Origin: Phytohabitans maris
GTDB lineage: Bacteria; Actinomycetota; Actinomycetes; Mycobacteriales; Micromonosporaceae
Reading direction: 5' to 3'
DNA length: 64,000 nucleotides
Assembly (NCBI RefSeq): GCF_031085175.1
Contig: NZ_JAVHUY010000023.1
Coordinates: 1-64,000, forward strand
Shown here: one piece after another, positions 9 to 63,088 of the stretch
Position numbering within the stretch: position 1 is the stretch's first letter
Layout: the number at the start of each line of letters is the position of its first letter
Notes under the pieces: generated by a model
What the model was told of the DNA's origin: nothing
Seen by the model: the letters and a program-made list of their open reading frames with translations, nothing else
Database searches by the model: none
Translations under genes and position numbers: made by a program

Positions 9-1039
9 GGCCTGTACCAAAGTCGGTTTAGAGCCATTCGTTGATTGCGGCGATGTGCACGGTGGCTTCGTAGCGGACGGCTAGCTTGTCGTATCTGGTG
101 GCCACGGCTCGGTTGCGTTTGAGCCGGTTGATGCCGCATTCCACGGCGTGGCGCTGCTTGTAGGTCTCGGGGTCGAAGGTTGGTGGCCGGCCGCCCTTGG
201 CCCCGAGCTTGCGCCGGTTGGCGTCCTGGTCGGCCTTGGACGGGATGGTCGCCTTGATTCCGCGTCGGCGTAGGTAGCGGCGGGTGCCCTTGCTGGTGTA
301 CGCCTTGTCCGCCAGGGCCCGGTCCGGGCGGGTCCGGGGTCGGCCGCCGCCCAGCCGGGGTACCCGGATCCCCTCAAGCACCGCGATGAACTGCGGGTTG
401 TCCCCGCGTTGCCCGGCGGTCAGCACGATCGACAGTGGCTTCTGGCCCTGCTCGCAGCCCAGGTGCAGCTTCGTGGTCAGCCCGCCGCGGGAGCGGCCCA
501 ACGCGTGGTCGGCCGGCTCATCGCGTACCCCGCCGGGCGGTTCGGCCTGCGCAGCTGCGTTCTTACGCGCCCCGGCGGCGTGCTGATGCGCACGGGCTAC
601 CGTCGAGTCGACCGAGACATCCCAGACGATCCGGCCGGCCGCGTCCGCCATGGCCTGCAGCGTGCTCAGGATCAGGGCCCAGGTTCCGGCGCGTTGCCAG
701 CGTCGGAACAGGTTGTAGGCAGCCACCCACGACCCGTAGTACTCCGGCATGTCTCGCCAGGGCGTGCCAGCCCGGGTCCGCCACCGGATCCCGTCAATGA
801 GCTGCCGTTTGGTCCATATCGGCGGCCGTCCGGCCTTCTTCGGCGTCGGCAGCAACGGCGCCAGCACCGCCCACTGCGCGTCGGTCAGGTCGTGCCGCCT
901 CGTCACCGCTACAGTGGCCACGAGGTCTCCGTATAGATGGTCTTCTTGGTCGAAAACTCATCTACCGGAGACCTCGCTATCTACCGGTCCTGACACGCCG
1001 AAATTCCCAAACCGTCACCGACCGACTTTGGTACGCGGC
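9..1039 (-). mobile_element. IS5-family insertion sequence, complete
   Basis: Imperfect terminal inverted repeats lie at 9-27 and 1021-1039. The inner part GTACCAAAGTCGGT matches exactly, and 16 of 19 positions match overall. Both ends are flanked by CTAG (5-8 and 1040-1043), which fits a four-base target duplication. One transposase gene fills the element on the minus strand. The right end sits inside the coding sequence of a zinc dehydrogenase, so the insertion caused that gene's truncation. The element looks intact and may be active. The left flank is cut off by the window edge after four bases beyond the duplication. Confidence 0.9.
28..921 (-). CDS. IS5-family transposase (DDE)
   Basis: This protein of 297 residues begins with the usual IS5 N-terminal pattern ([14 protein letters not shown]), followed by [14 protein letters not shown] and a DDE core: [13 protein letters not shown] holds the first Asp, [14 protein letters not shown] the second, and the C-terminal [19 protein letters not shown] block the catalytic Glu. 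The start is GTG at 921. The length is normal for single-frame IS5 transposases, and no programmed frameshift is needed. It catalyses cut-and-paste movement of the surrounding element by acting on the terminal repeats. Confidence 0.92.
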
Positions 1040-23803: not shown

Positions 23804-24675
23804 CCACGACGACGACTCAGGTCCGCATCGTGCCGCGGACGCCGAACTTCGGCGCGCGCGTGGAGGGTCTCGACGCCCGCGAGGAACTCGACGCCGACAC
23901 GATCGCCCAGCTGAAAGAGGCGATCCTCAAGTACAAGGTGCTGTTCTTCCGGGAGCAGAACCTGAACGAGGAGCAGCACGCCCGGTTCGCCGGCTACTTC
24001 GGAGAACCGTTCGAGCACAACAGCAACTTCGACATGCAGTACGAGGACGCCGGCCTGAGCAACGTCACGGTCGTCCCGCACTTCCACAGCGACGTCATGT
24101 ACATGACCGAACAGCCGGGCTTCGCGATGCTGCAGATGCTCACCCTGCCCGATGTCGGTGGCGACACCATGTGGGCCGACCTCGTCTCCAGCTACGACGC
24201 GCTGAGCGAGCCCATCAAGAAGCTCATCGATCCTCTCACGGTCATCAACGTCCACCCGGAGTACTTCGTCGACAGCCAGACACTCTCCGACCGCTACGAG
24301 AAGCGGTACGGCAAACCGCTGACCCCTGAGCAGATCGCCAAGCGGCGCAAGGACCTGAGCCCGACCGAGAGCCCTCTGGTCCGCGTCATTCCCGAGACCG
24401 GGTGCAAGAACTACTACATCAGCGCGTGGCACACGATGCAGATCAAGGGTCTGCCGAAGGACGAGAGCGACGCGATCCTCAACCTGTTGTACAGCCAGCA
24501 GCTCAAGCCCGAGTACGTCATCCGGTGGGAGTGGACGGTCGGCGACATCGCGTTCTGGGACCACCGTACGACGCTGCACGCCGGGGTCAACGACTACGCG
24601 GCGGGCGCGAAGCGGCACGGCCGGCGGGCCAACATCGGCGTCCACAGCCCAGTCCCGTCGGCGAGAGCGGCATGA
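23800..24675 (+). CDS. TauD/TfdA-family alpha-ketoglutarate-dependent dioxygenase
   Basis: The GTG start overlaps the aldolase stop. The 291-residue protein has the Fe(II) motif HxD at residues 96-98 (PHFHSDVMY), the GGDTMWADLVSSYDAL segment, and the distal His and oxoglutarate-binding Arg region WDHRTTLHAG and KRHGRRAN. Length is normal. The family hydroxylates substrates next to a heteroatom, releasing sulfite, a phenol or an alcohol. The substrate here is unknown. In this operon it may remove an ether or substituted side group from the compound before or after the Rieske step. Confidence 0.88.
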   Translation: MTTTTTQVRIVPRTPNFGARVEGLDAREELDADTIAQLKEAILKYKVLFFREQNLNEEQHARFAGYFGEPFEHNSNFDMQYEDAGLSNVTVVPHFHSDVMYMTEQPGFAMLQMLTLPDVGGDTMWADLVSSYDALSEPIKKLIDPLTVINVHPEYFVDSQTLSDRYEKRYGKPLTPEQIAKRRKDLSPTESPLVRVIPETGCKNYYISAWHTMQIKGLPKDESDAILNLLYSQQLKPEYVIRWEWTVGDIAFWDHRTTLHAGVNDYAAGAKRHGRRANIGVHSPVPSARAA

Positions 24676-26165
24676 CGTCGGCCGCAGCCGTCCGCCTGGA
24701 AGATCTGACCCTGGGCATGCCGGCCGCGACGGACGGCTTCGACTTCCCGGCACCGCGTTACCCCGCCTATCTGTGCCAGGAGCGGCCGAGCGACATCGAG
24801 GAGCTGATGCCACTGGCCCGCGCGCACGTGCGGCGCCGGTACGGCCGGTCCGCGCTCGGCGACATCAAGCCGCAGGACGAGCTGCTCATCGTCACATATC
24901 CCCACCAGAACGACATGGTGTTCGAAGCGCTGCGCCGCGCGATGCTGCTCGAAGGGGTGGCGAAGGTGGACCGGGTCGATGTGACGGACCTGGGCGTCGA
25001 GGTCGCTGACTACAGCGCGGCCGAAGGTTGGCGCGAGGTTACCGACCGGGTCGCGGCGATGACCGAGCAGGGGGTCATCCACAGCGTGGCCGCGGCCCGA
25101 TTGAAGGACTACCTGGACGACCGGCCCGGCTACACCGGCGTGCACGCGGGGGAGTCGGGGCGGCGCCACTGGAAGCGGTCAGCCGGGTCGCGGATGCGCA
25201 ACAACTGGACCTACTCCACCTACGAGGATTTCATCTCACGGTCGAACAGCTTTCCGGACGAGCTGTGGCGCATCATCGACCTCCGCGTCGTCGAGGCGTT
25301 CGCCGACGCCGCCGCCGTGCGCATCACCAGCCCGGAGGGGACCGACTTGCGCTGGGATGTCACGGCCGAGCAGGCGGCTCTGTGGGTCAAGGGAGCGTGG
25401 CAGTCGGGCCACATCCTCGGCTCGACCATTCAGGGCATCCGGTTCGGGCACTCGGTCGACACGTTCGTGCGCGAGGCCGAAATCCTGATGCCGACGACGA
25501 ACGGTGTGGTGGCCGGCACGAGCAACCACACCGGGTACTTCCCGCACGCCGAGGTGCACATCGAAGGCGGCATGATCAGCAAGGTGGTCGGCGGCGGGCG
25601 GTACGGTGACGTGTTCCGCGAGGTCATCGAACGCTTCAAGGACGCGCAGTACCCGGGTTTCCCGTACAAGGGATGGGCCTACTTCAACGACGCGTCCATC
25701 GGTACGAACCCGAAGAGCCACCGGCAGATCGAGACCCTCTGGAAGTACAACGACCCGCGGACGAACCTGCCCGAGCGGGCACAGGCCGGGGTCGTGCACT
25801 TCGGGTTCGGTGCGGAGCACTGGGACCAGGTCTTCCTCAAGTACGCGCGGGCCAACAAGCTGCCCACCATGCATTTCCCGCACATCCACAACATCTTCGC
25901 CACGTACGAGATCAAGCAACGCTCGACGGGTGAGTGGGTCAAGCTCATCGACAAGGGCCGGCTGTCGTGCCTCGACGACCCCGACATCGTCCGGATCGCC
26001 AACACCCTGGGCGGGCCGGAGCTGCTGCAGTACGACTGGATCCCCGCGTTGCCCGGCATCAACTACCCCGGCGACTACGCCACGGACTACGCGCGGGACC
26101 CCGTCTCGTGGATCAGGCGAGACCAGAACGGAGAGTTCCAGGTCGCCGCGGCCGGGAGGAGCTGA
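24672..26165 (+). CDS. M29 aminopeptidase / NicX-like metalloprotein
   Basis: A 497-residue protein. The block AAVRITSPEGTDLRWDV and the later GYFPHAEVHIEGGMISKVVGGGRYGD, followed by HFGFGAEHWDQVF and HFPHIHNIFATYEI, resemble the fold shared by M29 aminopeptidases and 2,5-dihydroxypyridine dioxygenase NicX, with His and Glu residues suited to bind a metal. It is longer than both (NicX about 350, M29 about 410). A ring-cleaving dioxygenase role would fill the gap left by the missing LigAB in this cluster, but that is a hypothesis. It overlaps the TauD gene and lies three bases before the MoxR-type gene. Confidence 0.55.
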   Translation: MTSAAAVRLEDLTLGMPAATDGFDFPAPRYPAYLCQERPSDIEELMPLARAHVRRRYGRSALGDIKPQDELLIVTYPHQNDMVFEALRRAMLLEGVAKVDRVDVTDLGVEVADYSAAEGWREVTDRVAAMTEQGVIHSVAAARLKDYLDDRPGYTGVHAGESGRRHWKRSAGSRMRNNWTYSTYEDFISRSNSFPDELWRIIDLRVVEAFADAAAVRITSPEGTDLRWDVTAEQAALWVKGAWQSGHILGSTIQGIRFGHSVDTFVREAEILMPTTNGVVAGTSNHTGYFPHAEVHIEGGMISKVVGGGRYGDVFREVIERFKDAQYPGFPYKGWAYFNDASIGTNPKSHRQIETLWKYNDPRTNLPERAQAGVVHFGFGAEHWDQVFLKYARANKLPTMHFPHIHNIFATYEIKQRSTGEWVKLIDKGRLSCLDDPDIVRIANTLGGPELLQYDWIPALPGINYPGDYATDYARDPVSWIRRDQNGEFQVAAAGRS

Positions 26166-26168
26166 ACC

Positions 26169-27023
26169 ATGACTGACGTGCGATCGCAATCGGTCGCGGA
26201 CCGGCGCCTGGCGTCGGCCGACTACCGGGTCCGCGAGGAGCCTTTCTACGTCCCGGTGGCCGACGAGGTGGCGACCTTCACCGCCGCGTACCAGTCGCGG
26301 CTTCCGGTGCTGCTGAAGGGGCCGACCGGATCGGGCAAGACTCGGTTCCTGGAGTACATGAGCTACCGGCTCGGCGCGGCCCAGCCGCTGCCACTGGTCA
26401 CGATCGCCTGCAACGACGAGTTGAGCTCAAGCGACCTCGTCGGGCGGTATCTGCTCACCGGGCAGGGATCGCAGTGGATCGACGGCCCGCTCACGGCGGC
26501 CGTGACGCACGGCGGGATCTGCTACCTGGACGAGGTGGTGGAGGCGCGCAAGGACACGGTCGTCATCCTGCACTCGCTCACCGACCACCGGCGGCTTCTG
26601 CCGATCGCGAAGCTCGGCGTGGTACTCGAGGCCCATCCCGACTTCCAGCTCGTCGCCTCCTACAACCCGCGGTACCAGTCGTCGATCAAGAATCTGAAGC
26701 ACAGTACCCAGCAGCGGTTCGTCGCGATCGAGTTCGACTATCCGGACACCGGGCGGGAAGCCGAGATCATCCGCGTGGAATCAGGTGTCGATGGCGAGAC
26801 GGCCGACCGGTTCGCCGAACTCGGCGCCAAGATTCGCAACCTAAGCCTGAACAACGTCATCGAGGGACCGAGCACGCGACTGCTCATCTACGCCGCGCGG
26901 ATGGTCGCCACCGGCGTCCCGCTGGGACAGGCATGCGAGGCCGCCATCACCCTGTCGGTGACGGACGATCGGGGTACTGCGGCCGGGATCCGCGAGATCA
27001 TCGACGCGGTCATGGGTGGCTGA
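26169..27023 (+). CDS. MoxR/NorQ/CbbQ-type AAA+ ATPase
   Basis: A 284-residue AAA+ protein. Walker A GPTGSGKT is at residues 51-58, Walker B ICYLDEV at about 117-123, sensor 1 near VASYNP, and the arginine-finger region QQRFVAIEFDYP is present. The early GRYLLTGQGSQWIDGPL segment is typical of NorQ/CbbQ proteins. These form rings that work with a VWA partner to insert or remodel a metal centre or to free an inhibited enzyme. The partner gene follows after five bases. The client is likely encoded in this cluster; TauD, the M29/NicX-like protein and the Rieske oxygenase are all candidates. Confidence 0.9.
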   Translation: MTDVRSQSVADRRLASADYRVREEPFYVPVADEVATFTAAYQSRLPVLLKGPTGSGKTRFLEYMSYRLGAAQPLPLVTIACNDELSSSDLVGRYLLTGQGSQWIDGPLTAAVTHGGICYLDEVVEARKDTVVILHSLTDHRRLLPIAKLGVVLEAHPDFQLVASYNPRYQSSIKNLKHSTQQRFVAIEFDYPDTGREAEIIRVESGVDGETADRFAELGAKIRNLSLNNVIEGPSTRLLIYAARMVATGVPLGQACEAAITLSVTDDRGTAAGIREIIDAVMGG

Positions 27024-27028
27024 CCGGG

Positions 27029-29104
27029 GTGTCGATGTCGGTCGATGGACCCACGGGTGTGGCCCTGGCGGACGTGTCGCCGAGGCTCGGGCTGCTCTAC
27101 ACCGGGCTGTCCGGCTGCGTGCGGACGATCGTGGCCCACGCGGATGCCGACGATCCGGTGCAGTTCCCGGACACCCTCGACACGATACAACTGCCCGCCT
27201 CGGCCCAGGGTCTCGACTGGTACCGCGCCGCCATCGCGCACCGCGCACTGCACGACACCTTGGGCAGCTTCGAGTTCCGGTTCGAGCAGGCGCCGGCCCT
27301 GTTGCCGAGTTCCCTGCGTGGCGTGGCGGCACCGGTGGCCGACGGCGCCGGGGACTTCGAGCGGGTCTTCGCGCTCTTCGGCCACCGGACCCTGGCCGAG
27401 CAGATCTTCACCGTGCTCGAGGACATCCGGGTCGAGGCGCGAACCACACGGTTCCGAGGCCTGCAGCCCGCCTTGCGAGCGGCTCGGGCCGCGGCCCGCG
27501 ACCGGTTCCCGCTGCGAGCGGGCGCGACGCCACGACAGGCGCTGGCCGACGCGCTGGCCCGGTTGAGTCTCGACGATCCGGCGGTCGCGGTTCCGGCCGT
27601 GATCGCCGCCGAAGCGGCGCAGGTCGCCTTCGTCTGCCGGCTGCTTCGCGATCCCCGCTCGACCGTGGCCGACACGGTCGAAGCGACTGTCCGGGTCTAC
27701 GGCCTTGTCACGCGGCTACCGGCGATCGGGCCGGCCGAACCGGCCGCGTCCTGGGTCCGTGTGCCGGCCGCGACCGACATCGAGCCGCCGGACTCTCGTC
27801 GCTGGCCGGACCACGCGGTCGTGGGACTCGAGGGTGGGAACGTACTCGACGTCGTCGTCCCCCCGGTCGACTACCGCGACGTGCTGTGGCCCCGCTTCCT
27901 GCCGCACACGCCGCCCATCCAGCATCGCGAGGCGGAGATCATACGATTCCTGCCACCCGGTGCGGGGCACGCGGCTGGCGAGTCGTGGCACGTGGACCAC
28001 CACGACGGCGACCACCACGATCACCATCACCACGACGAGCCCGAAGGGCTGCACCCGGTCGCGCACGAGCACAACGAGCCGGTCTTCGACGACGCGCCGG
28101 AGGCGCACGGGACGCTGTCTCCCGACGGCCCGGGCACCTTCGTCTACGACGAGTGGGACGGATTCCGCCGCGCGTATCGGCGGGCCTGGTGCCGGGTCCG
28201 GGAGCGGCGCATCGCGCCGGGCGAGAACGCCGATGGCTATCACGCCGCCCTCGATCGGCACACCGACGTGTTGCCCGCCCTGCACGCGCTCCTGGCGGCG
28301 CTCCGGCCGGAACGGCATCAGCTCGTCGGGCGTCAGGCCGAAGGCGACGAGATCGACCTGGACGCCGCGACCGAAGCGCTGATCGACCTGCGTGTCACCG
28401 GTTCGGCCTCGGACGACGTGTACCTGGCCCGGATGCCGGTCGAGCGGGACGTCGCGCTCGCCGCGTTGGTCGACCTGAGCTCGTCGACGGCCGAGCGCGT
28501 CGCGGCGACCGGCGACGGCTCGGACGACTTCCGGGACCGGCCGCGTGTGCTGGATCTGGAGATGGACAGCGTGGCGTTGCTGGCCCACCTTCTCGACCGG
28601 GTGCGCGATTCCTTCGCGGTCTACGGCTTCTCCGGCCGGGGGCGAGGGGCGGTCACCGTCGACGTGTTCAAGGAGTTCCACGAGCAGCTGACGCCTGGGG
28701 TCCTGTCCCGGTTCGCGCGCGCGGTACCGGTGTCCGGAACCCGGATGGGAGCGGCGATCCGGCACGCGACCCACAAACTTCGCGAGCAGTCGGCCCAGAC
28801 CCGGTTGCTCGTCGTCATCTCCGACGGACGTCCGTACGACCGGGACTACGGCCAGGAGTACGGCGAGGCCGCGGTGACCGACTACGCCAACCGGGACGTC
28901 CGCGCCGCGGTCGACGAGGCACGCGCCGCCGGCATCCGGGTCTTCCTGCTCACGGTCGACAAGGAGGGCCTGGACTACCTGCGCGAGACCTGCGGCGACG
29001 GCAACTACGAAGTCCTCGACGACGTGCGGCAGCTGCCCAGCCGGCTGCTGTCGCTGTACGGCGAACTCGTGGACTCGGGAACTGAGCTGGCATGGCGACG
29101 ATAA
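27029..29104 (+). CDS. VWA-domain partner of the MoxR ATPase (NorD/CbbO-like)
   Basis: GTG 27029 (ATG 27035 is also possible) gives 691 residues. The C-terminal VWA domain begins near residue 475 with the MIDAS DLSSST, followed by VYGFSGRGRG, GTRMGAAIRHAT and VVISDGRPYDRDYG. This is the NorD/CbbO layout. The long N-terminal part (VLEDIRVEARTTRFRG and others) is helical. Near residue 325-345 there is a run very rich in His, Asp and Glu (HVDHHDGDHHDHHHHDE), probably a metal-binding loop, which I do not know from standard NorD. It overlaps the start of the TPP-enzyme gene by 13 bases. Confidence 0.88.
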   Translation: MSMSVDGPTGVALADVSPRLGLLYTGLSGCVRTIVAHADADDPVQFPDTLDTIQLPASAQGLDWYRAAIAHRALHDTLGSFEFRFEQAPALLPSSLRGVAAPVADGAGDFERVFALFGHRTLAEQIFTVLEDIRVEARTTRFRGLQPALRAARAAARDRFPLRAGATPRQALADALARLSLDDPAVAVPAVIAAEAAQVAFVCRLLRDPRSTVADTVEATVRVYGLVTRLPAIGPAEPAASWVRVPAATDIEPPDSRRWPDHAVVGLEGGNVLDVVVPPVDYRDVLWPRFLPHTPPIQHREAEIIRFLPPGAGHAAGESWHVDHHDGDHHDHHHHDEPEGLHPVAHEHNEPVFDDAPEAHGTLSPDGPGTFVYDEWDGFRRAYRRAWCRVRERRIAPGENADGYHAALDRHTDVLPALHALLAALRPERHQLVGRQAEGDEIDLDAATEALIDLRVTGSASDDVYLARMPVERDVALAALVDLSSSTAERVAATGDGSDDFRDRPRVLDLEMDSVALLAHLLDRVRDSFAVYGFSGRGRGAVTVDVFKEFHEQLTPGVLSRFARAVPVSGTRMGAAIRHATHKLREQSAQTRLLVVISDGRPYDRDYGQEYGEAAVTDYANRDVRAAVDEARAAGIRVFLLTVDKEGLDYLRETCGDGNYEVLDDVRQLPSRLLSLYGELVDSGTELAWRR

Positions 29105-30723
29105 AGCTGCACGAGACCGTGGCCCGGTCGCTCGTCGACAGTGGCGTCGAGCGGCTGTTCGGGTTGATGGGTGACGCCAACCTGACCTACATCGCCGCGT
29201 ACCTCGACCTCGACAGCGGCCGATACATCGGTGCGGTGCACGAGTCGGGGGCCGTGTCCATGGCCGACGGCTACGCCCGCATGAGCGACAAGCTGGGCGT
29301 CGCCACGATCACCCACGGCCCGGGAACCACCAACGCGTTGACGGCGCTGACCGAAGCGGTCCGCACGCGCACCCCGCTGCTGTTGCTCACCGGCGAGACT
29401 CCCCGCGTCCGCGGTCACCTGCAGGCGCTCGACCTGCGGGCGGCGGCCCAGCTCACCGGGGCGGACTACCACCTTGTACACAGCGCGCGGACCGCGGTCG
29501 ACGACATCGCCATCGCGATGCGGACGATCTACGCGACCAGGCGCCCCGGGGTACTGAACGTCCCGCCCGAGCTGCTCGACGAGCCGGTCGAGTACCGGCC
29601 ATCGGTCTTCCGCTCGCCCGGGTTCGGCAGGCAGGCGGCCGGTCCGGACGAGGACGTGCTCGACGCCGCGGTCGGGGTGATCGCCTCGGCGGAACGACCG
29701 ATCATCCTGGCCGGGCGCGGCGTCGTCCAGAGCGGCGCGCGCGACGACGTGCTCGCGCTGTCCGAGCAGCTCGACGCCCCGCTGGCGACCACAGTCATGG
29801 CGAAGGACCTGTTCCGCGGTCATCCACTCGATCTGGGACTGTTCGGCGTCGAGGCCCACCCGCTCGCCCTCACCTACCTCAGCCGCGCCGACTGCGTGAT
29901 CGTCCTGGGCGCCGGACTCAACCGCTACACGACGGTCGGTGGCGACCTGCTCAGGGACAAGGCCGTCGTCCACTGCGACACCGACGTCTCGGTCCTCGGC
30001 GGACACCCGGGCTCGACGGTGTCAGTGCTGGCCGACGCTCGCACCTTCGCGCGGGCGGTACGCCGTTGCCTCACCGAACTGGGCCCGCCGCCGGCCCGAC
30101 GGTGGACCGGGTCGGTGCGCGCCGAACTCGCGGGCTTCACGCCGGAGACCCAGTTTCGCGATCGGAGCTCGGCGACGCTGATCGACATGCGCACCGCGAT
30201 GGTCGCGCTGGACCAGGTGCTGCCGGCCGAGCGGACGCTGGTCACCGATATCGGCCGCTTCCGGGGAGCACCCTGGCGATTTCTGCACTGCCGGCCCGGA
30301 GGGTTCTCGCACAGCGCGAGCTTCGGCTCCATCGGACTCGGTCTGGCGACGGCGATAGGCGCCAGTGTGGCCGACCCCGACCACGTGACGGTGGCGGCCG
30401 TCGGCGACGGCGGCCTGATGATGGGCCTGATGGAGCTCAACACCGCGGTGCAGGAGCGCCTGCCGCTCGTCGTCGCGGTGCTCAACGACGGTTCGTACGG
30501 GGCCGAGTTCCGCCGGCTCACCGCGCACGGCCACGACCCGAGCTACTCGCTGCGGCCATGGCCGTCGTTCGCCGCCGTCGCCAAGGCGCTGGGCGCGCGG
30601 AGCGCGACGATCCGCACGGTCGACGACATCCGCGAGCTGAAATCCACCTTCGAGAACCTCAGGACTCCGTTTCTGCTCGACATCAAGGCTGATCCCGCGC
30701 TCAGCGCGGGCGATTGGGAATGA
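29092..30723 (+). CDS. thiamine-diphosphate enzyme (acetolactate synthase/benzoylformate decarboxylase superfamily)
   Basis: A 543-residue protein with the three-domain layout. The catalytic Glu is E51 in VHESGAVSMADGYAR. The middle FAD/NAD-like domain carries RPIILAGRGVVQSG. The C-terminal TPP motif starts at GDGG near residue 438 and ends at the Asn of VVAVLND. It would decarboxylate a 2-oxo acid or join two carbonyl compounds. The absence of an obvious FAD role leaves decarboxylase and carboligase both open. It follows the MoxR/VWA pair with overlap, so the operon makes them together. Confidence 0.85.
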   Translation: MATIKLHETVARSLVDSGVERLFGLMGDANLTYIAAYLDLDSGRYIGAVHESGAVSMADGYARMSDKLGVATITHGPGTTNALTALTEAVRTRTPLLLLTGETPRVRGHLQALDLRAAAQLTGADYHLVHSARTAVDDIAIAMRTIYATRRPGVLNVPPELLDEPVEYRPSVFRSPGFGRQAAGPDEDVLDAAVGVIASAERPIILAGRGVVQSGARDDVLALSEQLDAPLATTVMAKDLFRGHPLDLGLFGVEAHPLALTYLSRADCVIVLGAGLNRYTTVGGDLLRDKAVVHCDTDVSVLGGHPGSTVSVLADARTFARAVRRCLTELGPPPARRWTGSVRAELAGFTPETQFRDRSSATLIDMRTAMVALDQVLPAERTLVTDIGRFRGAPWRFLHCRPGGFSHSASFGSIGLGLATAIGASVADPDHVTVAAVGDGGLMMGLMELNTAVQERLPLVVAVLNDGSYGAEFRRLTAHGHDPSYSLRPWPSFAAVAKALGARSATIRTVDDIRELKSTFENLRTPFLLDIKADPALSAGDWE

Positions 30724-61294: not shown

Positions 61295-63088
61295 GAGCCC
61301 CCTGAACAATCCGGCTTCGGGTGGGGGTGTGGGAACGGGGAAGGCTTCTCAATGGCCGTCTGTGCGGCGGTTGGGTCACAGCGCGTGGCTGGACAACGAG
61401 CTTGCCTTTCCCCGTTCTGGGTTGAGGTTAGCCCGGTGTCCGGTGGTGGTCAGGCGATGGCCCAGCCGTCGGGGTGGCGGGTGAGGCCGAGGTTGATCAG
61501 GCGGCGGAGGTTGAGGGCGGCCATGCGGGTGTGTAGCCACCAGTCGTTCGCGGTCACGCCGTGGTAGCGCAGTTTGCGGCAGCGGCCTTTCGGGCCGATG
61601 AGCCAGGCGATGGAGCGTTCGACCATGGGTCGGTGCCGGCGGTAGGTGTCACGGAGGTCGTCGTGGGTGGCCCAGTCGTGGCGGGCTTGGCGTAGCAGCG
61701 CGTGGTGTTTGTGTAGGACTAGGCCTCGGCCTGTCTTTGAGGTGGTGCAGTGCTGTTGTAGTGGGCAGTCGCGGCAGGCGGCGCCGAAGGTGACCGTGCG
61801 GCGGGCGGTGATGCGTCGGGTGACGTGGTTGGGGCAGGTGACGGTGCCGGCGGTCTCGTCGACGGTGAAGTCGTCCAGGGTGAACCCGCCGGCAACGGCG
61901 GGGGTCAGCGGTCCCGGTTTGATGACCGCGGTGTGCCCGGCGTCGGTGAGGGCGGCGCGGGCCTCGCCGGTGCCGTAGGCCGAATCGCCCAGTACTTCGA
62001 ACCCGTCGGGCGGCGGATCGACCGGGTCGTTGTCCAGCAGGTACAGACCGACGACGGCTTCGTGGTTGTCCTCGCCGCAGGCCATGGTGAGCTCGCCAGC
62101 GGTGAACAGCCCGGTGTCCGGCTCGATGGCCACGTGGGCCTTGTAGCCGTCCTGGCGGTGGTGCACGGTTTTGTGCGCGTGCCGGGCCTGCGGATCGACG
62201 GTGGAGATCACCCGGTCCTCGGCGACCCGATGGGCGATCCGCCACCGCCCATCCGTGCCATCGGAGCCGTCGGCGGGTTCGACGTCCTGACCGGCGACCA
62301 GCGCCAACAACGCCAAGGCCTGGGCGGCCGGCTCGTCCAGCTTCGCCTCGGCCAACTCAGCCACGATGGTGTTGGCGTCGTTGACCAGCACCGACACCAG
62401 CGCGTCCCGGGCCGCCTTGTCATCCCACGCAATCGAAGGCTTGCCCGGATCATCCCAGTCGTGCGCGTAACACCGCTCGGCAATCAGGTCGGCCGCGGCG
62501 GGGACCAAGCGGCGGACCCTTCGCACCGCGGCGATCAACTGGGTGACCGTGTCCTGCGTAGCCACGGCGTCATCCAGGACCACCGAATCCAACGCCCGCC
62601 GCGTCTTGCCTTTCAACACACCGGTCTGGGCGACCACCTGGCGAACCGCCTCGAAGATCCGGTCCGGCCGGTTCGAGGCCCGTAGCCGGTTGCGCCACAC
62701 CGTCAACGTGGTCGGGTGGAACCCCTCATGATCGATCGGCAGCCCACACGCGGTCTTCCACCGCAGATCACACCGCAACGCGGTCATCGCCTCGCTATCG
62801 GAGCGATCCTCCAACGTCTGCAACACCAGCACCGAGGCGATCACCTCGCCCGGTACCGACGGGCGACCCTTCCCAGACGGGAACAGATCCGCGAACAGCC
62901 CGTCCGGGAACACATCCAGCCGGTGCTCGGCCAGGAACGCGTACACACTGCCCGCCGGTACCAGATGCCCCACCAAAGCCGCGGCATCCAACAACACACG
63001 GTCCGGATCCGATCGACCCTGCATCACCCGATTATCGATCAAACCCGATCAAACCCGATGGACCGCCACACCATTAATCAGCGGTCTC
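61295..63088 (-). mobile_element. IS1182-family insertion sequence, complete
   Basis: The ends GAGCCCCCTGAACAAT (61295-61310) and, on the other strand, GAGACCGCTGATTAAT (63088-63073) are imperfect inverted repeats with 12 of 16 matches. CTAG flanks both ends (61291-61294 and 63089-63092), the four-base palindromic target duplication usual for IS1182. One full transposase gene is inside. The element lies after the protease-like gene and does not cut it. Confidence 0.88.
61450..63042 (-). CDS. IS1182-family transposase
   Basis: A 530-residue DDE transposase. SVYAFLAEHRLDVFPDGLFA and RPSVPGEVIASVLVLQTLED near the start form the DUF772 region. The catalytic core shows Asp in ALDSVVLDDAVATQDT, Asp in VLGDSAYGTGEARAAL and Glu in RPMVERSIAWLIGPKGRCRK. 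A zinc-ribbon-like Cys group (CRDCPLQQHC) lies between, as in other IS1182 proteins. Length and frame are complete, so it may be active. Confidence 0.93.
   Translation of the reverse strand: MIDNRVMQGRSDPDRVLLDAAALVGHLVPAGSVYAFLAEHRLDVFPDGLFADLFPSGKGRPSVPGEVIASVLVLQTLEDRSDSEAMTALRCDLRWKTACGLPIDHEGFHPTTLTVWRNRLRASNRPDRIFEAVRQVVAQTGVLKGKTRRALDSVVLDDAVATQDTVTQLIAAVRRVRRLVPAAADLIAERCYAHDWDDPGKPSIAWDDKAARDALVSVLVNDANTIVAELAEAKLDEPAAQALALLALVAGQDVEPADGSDGTDGRWRIAHRVAEDRVISTVDPQARHAHKTVHHRQDGYKAHVAIEPDTGLFTAGELTMACGEDNHEAVVGLYLLDNDPVDPPPDGFEVLGDSAYGTGEARAALTDAGHTAVIKPGPLTPAVAGGFTLDDFTVDETAGTVTCPNHVTRRITARRTVTFGAACRDCPLQQHCTTSKTGRGLVLHKHHALLRQARHDWATHDDLRDTYRRHRPMVERSIAWLIGPKGRCRKLRYHGVTANDWWLHTRMAALNLRRLINLGLTRHPDGWAIA

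Follow-up and report, generated by a model that had tools for sequence, protein, structure and literature searches.

MoxR-type AAA+ ATPases paired with VWA proteins are widespread, and to our knowledge few of these pairs have known clients. For NorQ-NorD, the NorD linker (residues 242-393 in J. thermophila) is reported not to be resolved in the maps, and nitric oxide reductase is said to lack FeB with each of the linker deletions that were tried (PMC13036017). For CbbQ-CbbO, a C-terminal RbcL motif is said to mark the rubisco forms that go with the pair (PMC8718961). A further point of reference is NicX (2,5-dihydroxypyridine 5,6-dioxygenase), described as a homohexameric Fe(II) dioxygenase with the ligands His265, Ser302, His318 and Asp320 (PMC7910607). 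Here we analyse a stretch of 64,000 nucleotides from the actinobacterium Phytohabitans maris (contig NZ_JAVHUY010000023.1, positions 1 to 64,000 of the forward strand; hereafter the window), in which a pair of this kind directly follows the gene of a NicX-like protein, and we conclude that the pair belongs to a lineage of NorQD type whose dedicated clients form a new family, the NicX-like proteins.

The three-gene module and its distribution

In the window the three genes lie in succession on the plus strand. The NicX-like protein, the proposed client (497 residues; 24672..26165), is followed after 3 bases, counted from its stop at 26165, by a CbbQ/NorQ-type MoxR ATPase (284 residues; 26169..27023), and this after 5 bases by a NorD/CbbO-type VWA protein that starts at 27029 (GTG) or, with a gap of 11 bases, at 27035 (ATG) and ends at 29104 (689 residues from the ATG). 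The original prediction, made by a model from the DNA letters and their open reading frames, had set the pair between an M29/NicX-like protein and a thiamine pyrophosphate (TPP) enzyme with a 13-base overlap to the latter, and the coordinates bear this out: the TPP enzyme gene (29092..30723, plus strand; same operon) starts at 29092, within a VWA gene whose stop codon ends at 29104.

Two short peptide patterns of the NicX-like protein were searched in a genome contig collection that represents 84,980 species by a single genome each and gave 25 loci in 19 assemblies of Actinomycetota and Betaproteobacteria, the overlapping contigs L048 and L052 among them; as only two such patterns served as query, distant NicX-like relatives were missed. 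A CbbQ gene, a VWA gene or both are adjacent at 24 of these 25 loci, and at the last (L060) the contig ends inside the NicX-like gene. The genes occur in two orders, NicX-CbbQ-VWA and CbbQ-VWA-NicX, with gaps mostly below about 160 bases; L061 differs in having a substrate-binding protein gene in between and, at a distance of about 5 kb, a second NicX-like copy with a stop codon inside its match. A genome of the same order and a different family (G022) also has the trio, there with no TPP gene, at identities of 73% for the NicX-like protein, 57% for the ATPase and 41% for the VWA protein. No NicX-like match was found on plasmids, nor in any of five further Phytohabitans genomes.

The association was also approached from the VWA side, by querying 298 genomes of the order and 396 of the phylum, two sets that share some genomes, with the VWA protein; in the phylum search 20 of 45 listed places were fetched, two of which (L100, L101) are trios, and some of the control stretches are short (L106, L108). 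All four VWA genes of the same clade (the window, G022 and G704 twice) have a NicX-like gene adjacent, and none of the 18 fetched VWA loci outside the clade has a NicX-like match within the fetched stretch. Whole-genome counts of CbbQ_C proteins equal the number of trios seen: one in the window's own genome, one in G022 and two in G704. Related pairs also occur in other settings. At four loci of family f73 (L103, L104, L105 and L119, from G783, G793, G937 and G674) a NorQ/NorD-type pair lies near a divergently oriented TPP-enzyme-like gene whose product is 26-28% identical to that of the window, and on two plasmids an aliphatic amidase, a CbbQ-type ATPase and a VWA protein are encoded in a row (L068:6729-11039, Roseibium; L069:3037-6687, Paraburkholderia). 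The amidase, a hydrolase, is a further apparent client for this kind of pair; in the literature on amidase operons we found nothing to the point.

The three genes also appear to share a history. The trio rows fall on one side of a branch both in the ATPase tree (23 trio and 22 control rows; Shimodaira-Hasegawa-like approximate likelihood ratio test, SH-aLRT, 92) and in the tree of VWA C-terminal regions (23 trio and 23 control rows; SH-aLRT 100), these being trees made by a quick method without bootstrap, with several long branches, with the duplicate L048/L052 VWA and CbbQ rows dropped and with CbbO sequences outside them. Over 20 trios, the pairwise distances agree closely (Mantel r 0.869 for NicX-like/ATPase, 0.869 for NicX-like/VWA and 0.927 for ATPase/VWA, reached in 0 of 5000 permutations each), part of this agreement being owed to shared genome history. 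Three assemblies (clean582, FK2.bin13 and LSA3.bin6) hold three NicX-like paralogs each, with an adjacent pair visible for eight of the nine, the ninth being L060; as far as complete enough sequences allow their inclusion, the three paralog types come back in the trees as corresponding clades, and an LSA3 contig of 24,674 bases carries the end of one trio and then two more trios in succession. Trios of the betaproteobacterial Oxalobacteraceae nest among actinobacterial ones, which, together with the lack of NicX-like matches in the five congeneric genomes, suggests that the module probably moves between lineages.

The ATPase, the VWA protein and its linker

Sequence comparison confirms the ATPase as a member of the CbbQ/NorQ subfamily of MoxR AAA+ ATPases. 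It matches the Pfam families AAA_5 (E 2e-30, 106 bits against a cut-off of 22) and CbbQ_C (E 1.5e-23, 83.3 bits against 20.6), and its best matches among PDB sequences by phmmer are CbbQ and then NorQ (5c3c, 6l1q, 9qh4 and 9qhd; E 4.5e-91 for 5c3c and 8.6e-85 for the NorQ 9qh4). Walker A (GPTGSGKT at residue 51), the NorQ H2-insert motif (GRYLL at 92) and Walker B (CYLDEV at 118) can all be recognised, and Walker A, Walker B and GRxLL are conserved in the alignment of its relatives. It is the only CbbQ_C protein of its genome.

The VWA protein likewise is the sole match to itself in its genome. Its PDB sequence matches with E below 1e-29 are both NorD and are confined to the C-terminal half (NorD 9qhd_G, E 5.6e-61, profile span 378-696). 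In an AlphaFold2 model (predicted local distance difference test, pLDDT, 72.1; predicted template modelling score, pTM, 0.48), a helical N-terminal part is followed by a disordered region (approximately residues 289-355) and then by the VWA domain, and the top six Foldseek matches of this model are all NorD (9qh6_G, E 1.2e-19). The metal ion-dependent adhesion site (MIDAS), DLSSST at residue 480, is complete, and in an alignment of 19 sequences D480, S482, S484, T569 and D597 do not vary. With its finger and PEWD regions also present, the protein is confirmed, as far as sequence and model go, as a NorD/CbbO-type partner, and the Pfam matches, the PDB sequence matches and the NorD-like model together uphold the early view of a NorQ-NorD/CbbQ-CbbO-type pair. 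It is not NorD proper, as its neighbour is a NicX-like gene rather than norCB and it falls in a clade apart from the three NorD rows (SH-aLRT 100). As for CbbO proper, no rubisco was found among the scanned genes of the window, the whole genome not having been searched for rubisco.

The His-rich linker element of the VWA protein (residues 318-346, WHVDHHDGDHHDHHHH...PVAHEH, numbered from the ATG at 27035; 27986..28072, plus strand) precedes a YDEWD motif at residue 371, with WHVDHH starting at residue 318 and PVAHEH at 341, and falls within the disordered part, where AlphaFold2 gives a pLDDT of about 26-31 over residues 291-350. A dense His/Asp stretch near residues 325-345 had been noticed at the outset, and the composition agrees: 9 His fall within the densest stretch of 20 residues, and shuffling the protein 2000 times never gave as many. 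To compare linkers, motifs were counted in the 70 residues preceding the EWD motif, which 17 control rows, including three from NorD, have in recognisable form. The pattern P..H.H occurs in 22 of 23 trio linkers, which have 4-14 His each, and L038 has PLPHEDH instead, so that the form PxxH-x(1-2)-H covers all 22 distinct readable trio linkers (two of the 23 rows being the same gene). PxxHxH is found in none of the 17 control linkers, whose His count is 0-2; in the two amidase-linked VWA proteins, which have no EWD and were read by eye, the motif is missing as well. The long His run is particular to the window, and the short PxxHxH in the same linker is, by sequence, a hallmark of the whole lineage.

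The NicX-like protein and the genes around the module

Sequence searches with the NicX-like protein gave no match in Pfam (E 0.01), NCBIfam or the PDB (phmmer/hmmsearch), and its assignment as an M29 peptidase by sequence was rejected, since neither these searches nor hhalign returned anything significant; the M29 family (PF02073) has no match in any of 24 aligned NicX-like family members at E up to 5. Its AlphaFold2 model, built on an alignment of 24 sequences (pLDDT 69.7, pTM 0.71), has as its sole significant Foldseek matches the M29 aminopeptidases and NicX (PepS/NicX/AmpT; E 4.8e-10 to 8.8e-8). VIA-align places NicX first (7cn3 and 7cup; Z 17.6 and 17.5 over 309 and 305 residues), followed by M29 enzymes (Z 10.5-11.3) and CgnE/CgnB (10.0 and 9.1), with all others at or below 6.1, and NicX is thus the closest fold of the model. 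The window's genome also encodes a second M29-like protein (G000:C7:1098-2330, L074), which matches PF02073 at 36 bits and has no linked CbbQ/VWA pair; its BLAST match to the NicX-like protein (E 0.007 in a set of three sequences) was not counted as evidence.

By the order of motifs, H376 and H401/H404 would be candidate metal ligands, with no counterparts identified for the Ser and the Asp of NicX, and a MAFFT alignment does not support this mapping at the last His motif. The C terminus is distinctive. The window protein has WIRRDQNGEF at residue 480, and this tail, WIxx[DE]xxG[EA]F or a close form, is present in all 26 NicX-like proteins that have a linked pair and whose C terminus can be read (23 with GEF, 3 with GAF), L060 and the first of the two L061 copies being excluded both from this count and from the NicX-like tree. 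Two pair-less relatives (L063 and L064, about 33% identical) end earlier, and neither has the tail; their genes lie beside a bicupin, with a similar ATP-binding cassette (ABC) transporter nearby.

Library scans of the window place substrate-binding proteins, a cupin, an HpcH/HpaI aldolase and a TauD-like dioxygenase 5' of the trio, and a polysaccharide-deacetylase-like protein, amidohydrolases, an ABC transporter, a ferredoxin and a Rieske protein 3' of it. Near some other NicX-like genes there are molybdenum hydroxylase genes (MoCoBD and [2Fe-2S], scanned for L044; L044:716-3264 and L046:544-3092), a hint at heteroaromatic substrates, and at two loci a second AAA ATPase with a His-rich start is encoded just before a TPP enzyme (L062:5261-6148, PF00004 by scan; L044:6430-7341). 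Open reading frames near both ends of the window (28-921 and 61450-63042) look transposase-like by eye.

Client, mechanism and comparison with known systems

The data assembled here establish the family of both members of the pair, their exclusive genetic linkage to the NicX-like gene, the parallel histories of the three genes and a linker element and client tail specific to the lineage. On this basis the NicX-like protein is very probably the client of the pair. The original prediction had the pair serving a metalloenzyme of the cluster without deciding on one; linkage, trees, distances and tail now single out the NicX-like protein, and the part of the proposal that named the TauD-like, Rieske and TPP enzymes found no support, these being rare beside relatives. 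Were one of them or the cupin the true client, with the NicX-like protein merely a frequent neighbour, the 13-base overlap of the TPP and VWA genes and the cupins near 10 of the 25 NicX-like loci would find an explanation. We consider this very unlikely, as clusters of similar TPP enzymes extend to at most three relatives' loci each and do not include that of the window, TauD is seen at the window alone and Rieske only there and at L057. Cupins also accompany pair-less NicX-like genes and so follow the NicX-like gene and not the pair. The TPP enzyme, not conserved beside relatives, and the cupin were both rejected as clients. A general stress or quality-control chaperone on a mobile catabolic island would fit the sporadic occurrence of the cluster, given that all five other genomes of the genus lack the NicX-like gene, and yet is scarcely credible, since the parallel trees, the paralog-by-paralog duplication and the clade-specific linker and tail fit a dedicated client.

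What the pair does to its client is a separate matter. If the NicX-like protein is the client, metal loading is likely, and we favour it on three grounds: NorQD inserts iron, the client shares its predicted fold with an Fe(II) enzyme, and there are lineage-specific His residues in the linker. Taking both steps together, we lean towards a NorQD/CbbQO-type machine with the NicX-like protein as its dedicated client and with metal loading or replacement as the most likely outcome, the His-bearing linker sitting where the NorD linker must be intact for iron insertion. By analogy with NorQD, the VWA domain would dock via its finger in the pore of the hexameric ATPase, and the VWA N-terminal domain, the MIDAS or both would hold the client; ATP-driven rotation would then pull the linker and open the client's active site (step order after PMC13036017), where a mononuclear metal, probably Fe(II), might be loaded or replaced. 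The conserved tail of the NicX-like protein is a candidate docking tag, comparable to the RbcL C terminus recognised by CbbQO. A bolder version, in which the PxxHxH of the VWA linker, extended to a His/Asp run in the window, itself carries Fe(II) into the active site as the ATPase turns and the VWA protein holds the WIxxDQxGEF tail, is in our view rather doubtful.

Several observations tell against the preferred reading as a whole. P. putida NicX made alone in Escherichia coli is reported to be active and to contain iron (PMC7910607), so that the NicX fold as such needs no activator, and the relationship of the client to M29 enzymes is not significant in the hhalign profile comparison. The pair-less relatives L063 and L064 keep H247, H286, H376, H401, H404 and H406, and their whole genomes hold no CbbQ_C protein at all, an objection weakened by the finding that cNOR requires NorQD and qNOR, as described, does not (PMC9976466). 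NorD linkers lack the His motif though NorD inserts iron, and PxxHxH is therefore no proof of metal handling; related pairs stand beside an aliphatic amidase on two plasmids; and the association counts come in part from loci found with the NicX-like protein as bait. CbbQO, moreover, acts on rubisco by repair and not by metal loading. The pair might accordingly be a reactivase that frees the NicX-like protein of a dead-end ligand or an oxidised centre, or an aid to oligomer assembly, with no metal transfer. This alternative draws on the same linkage evidence and on the existence of an amidase-linked pair; CbbQO clears rubisco inhibitors and reads a C-terminal RbcL motif that, as far as described, is carried only by the forms associated with it (PMC8718961), a parallel to the NicX-like tail, and NicX, a homohexamer, loads its iron unaided (PMC7910607). 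It leaves the lineage-specific His element of the linker without an obvious role in inhibitor release, and we regard it as possible though on the whole unlikely.

A compact three-gene module of this kind would combine the pair with a client that is soluble, separately encoded and very probably metal-dependent, so that the action of a NorD-type linker on its client and the recognition of that client, whether by the linker His element or by the C-terminal tail, become testable without a membrane enzyme. The module further marks out a probably catabolic enzyme family that has no name yet and, on the evidence of the model, a NicX fold. If the linker does carry Fe(II), this would be a metal-insertion machine with its own metal for a soluble enzyme of a ring-cleaving dioxygenase fold.

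Compared with the known systems, the pair resembles NorQ-NorD in its CbbQ_C ATPase, in a VWA protein with MIDAS and PEWD region and in the layout of N-terminal domain, disordered linker and VWA domain; it differs in forming a separate clade in both trees, in its linker His element and in serving a soluble NicX-like client instead of the membrane protein NorB. With CbbQ-CbbO it shares the ATPase family (best PDB matches 5c3c and 6l1q) and a client C-terminal motif that tracks the pair, much as described for RbcL (PMC8718961), although no rubisco is found among the annotated genes of the linked loci and CbbO lies outside our trees. NicX is the closest modelled fold of the client (Z 17.6, 309 of 349 residues), from which the NicX-like protein departs in being only about 11% identical, with no sequence match, in being some 150 residues longer and, if the tentative mapping holds, in having conserved H376/H401/H404/H406 where NicX has its His-Ser-His-Asp set; NicX itself needs no activator. 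The M29 aminopeptidases (AmpT, PepS and AmpS) have the same predicted fold (Z 10.5-11.3), with Z scores below that of NicX and a profile comparison that is not significant. The original prediction had called the client undescribed for this family, and our search, which left most subscription papers outside, found no published case in which a MoxR/VWA pair serves a NicX- or M29-type client. The kind of system is already known from NorQD and CbbQO, and what is new, as far as we have seen, is the client family, the linker element and the client tail.

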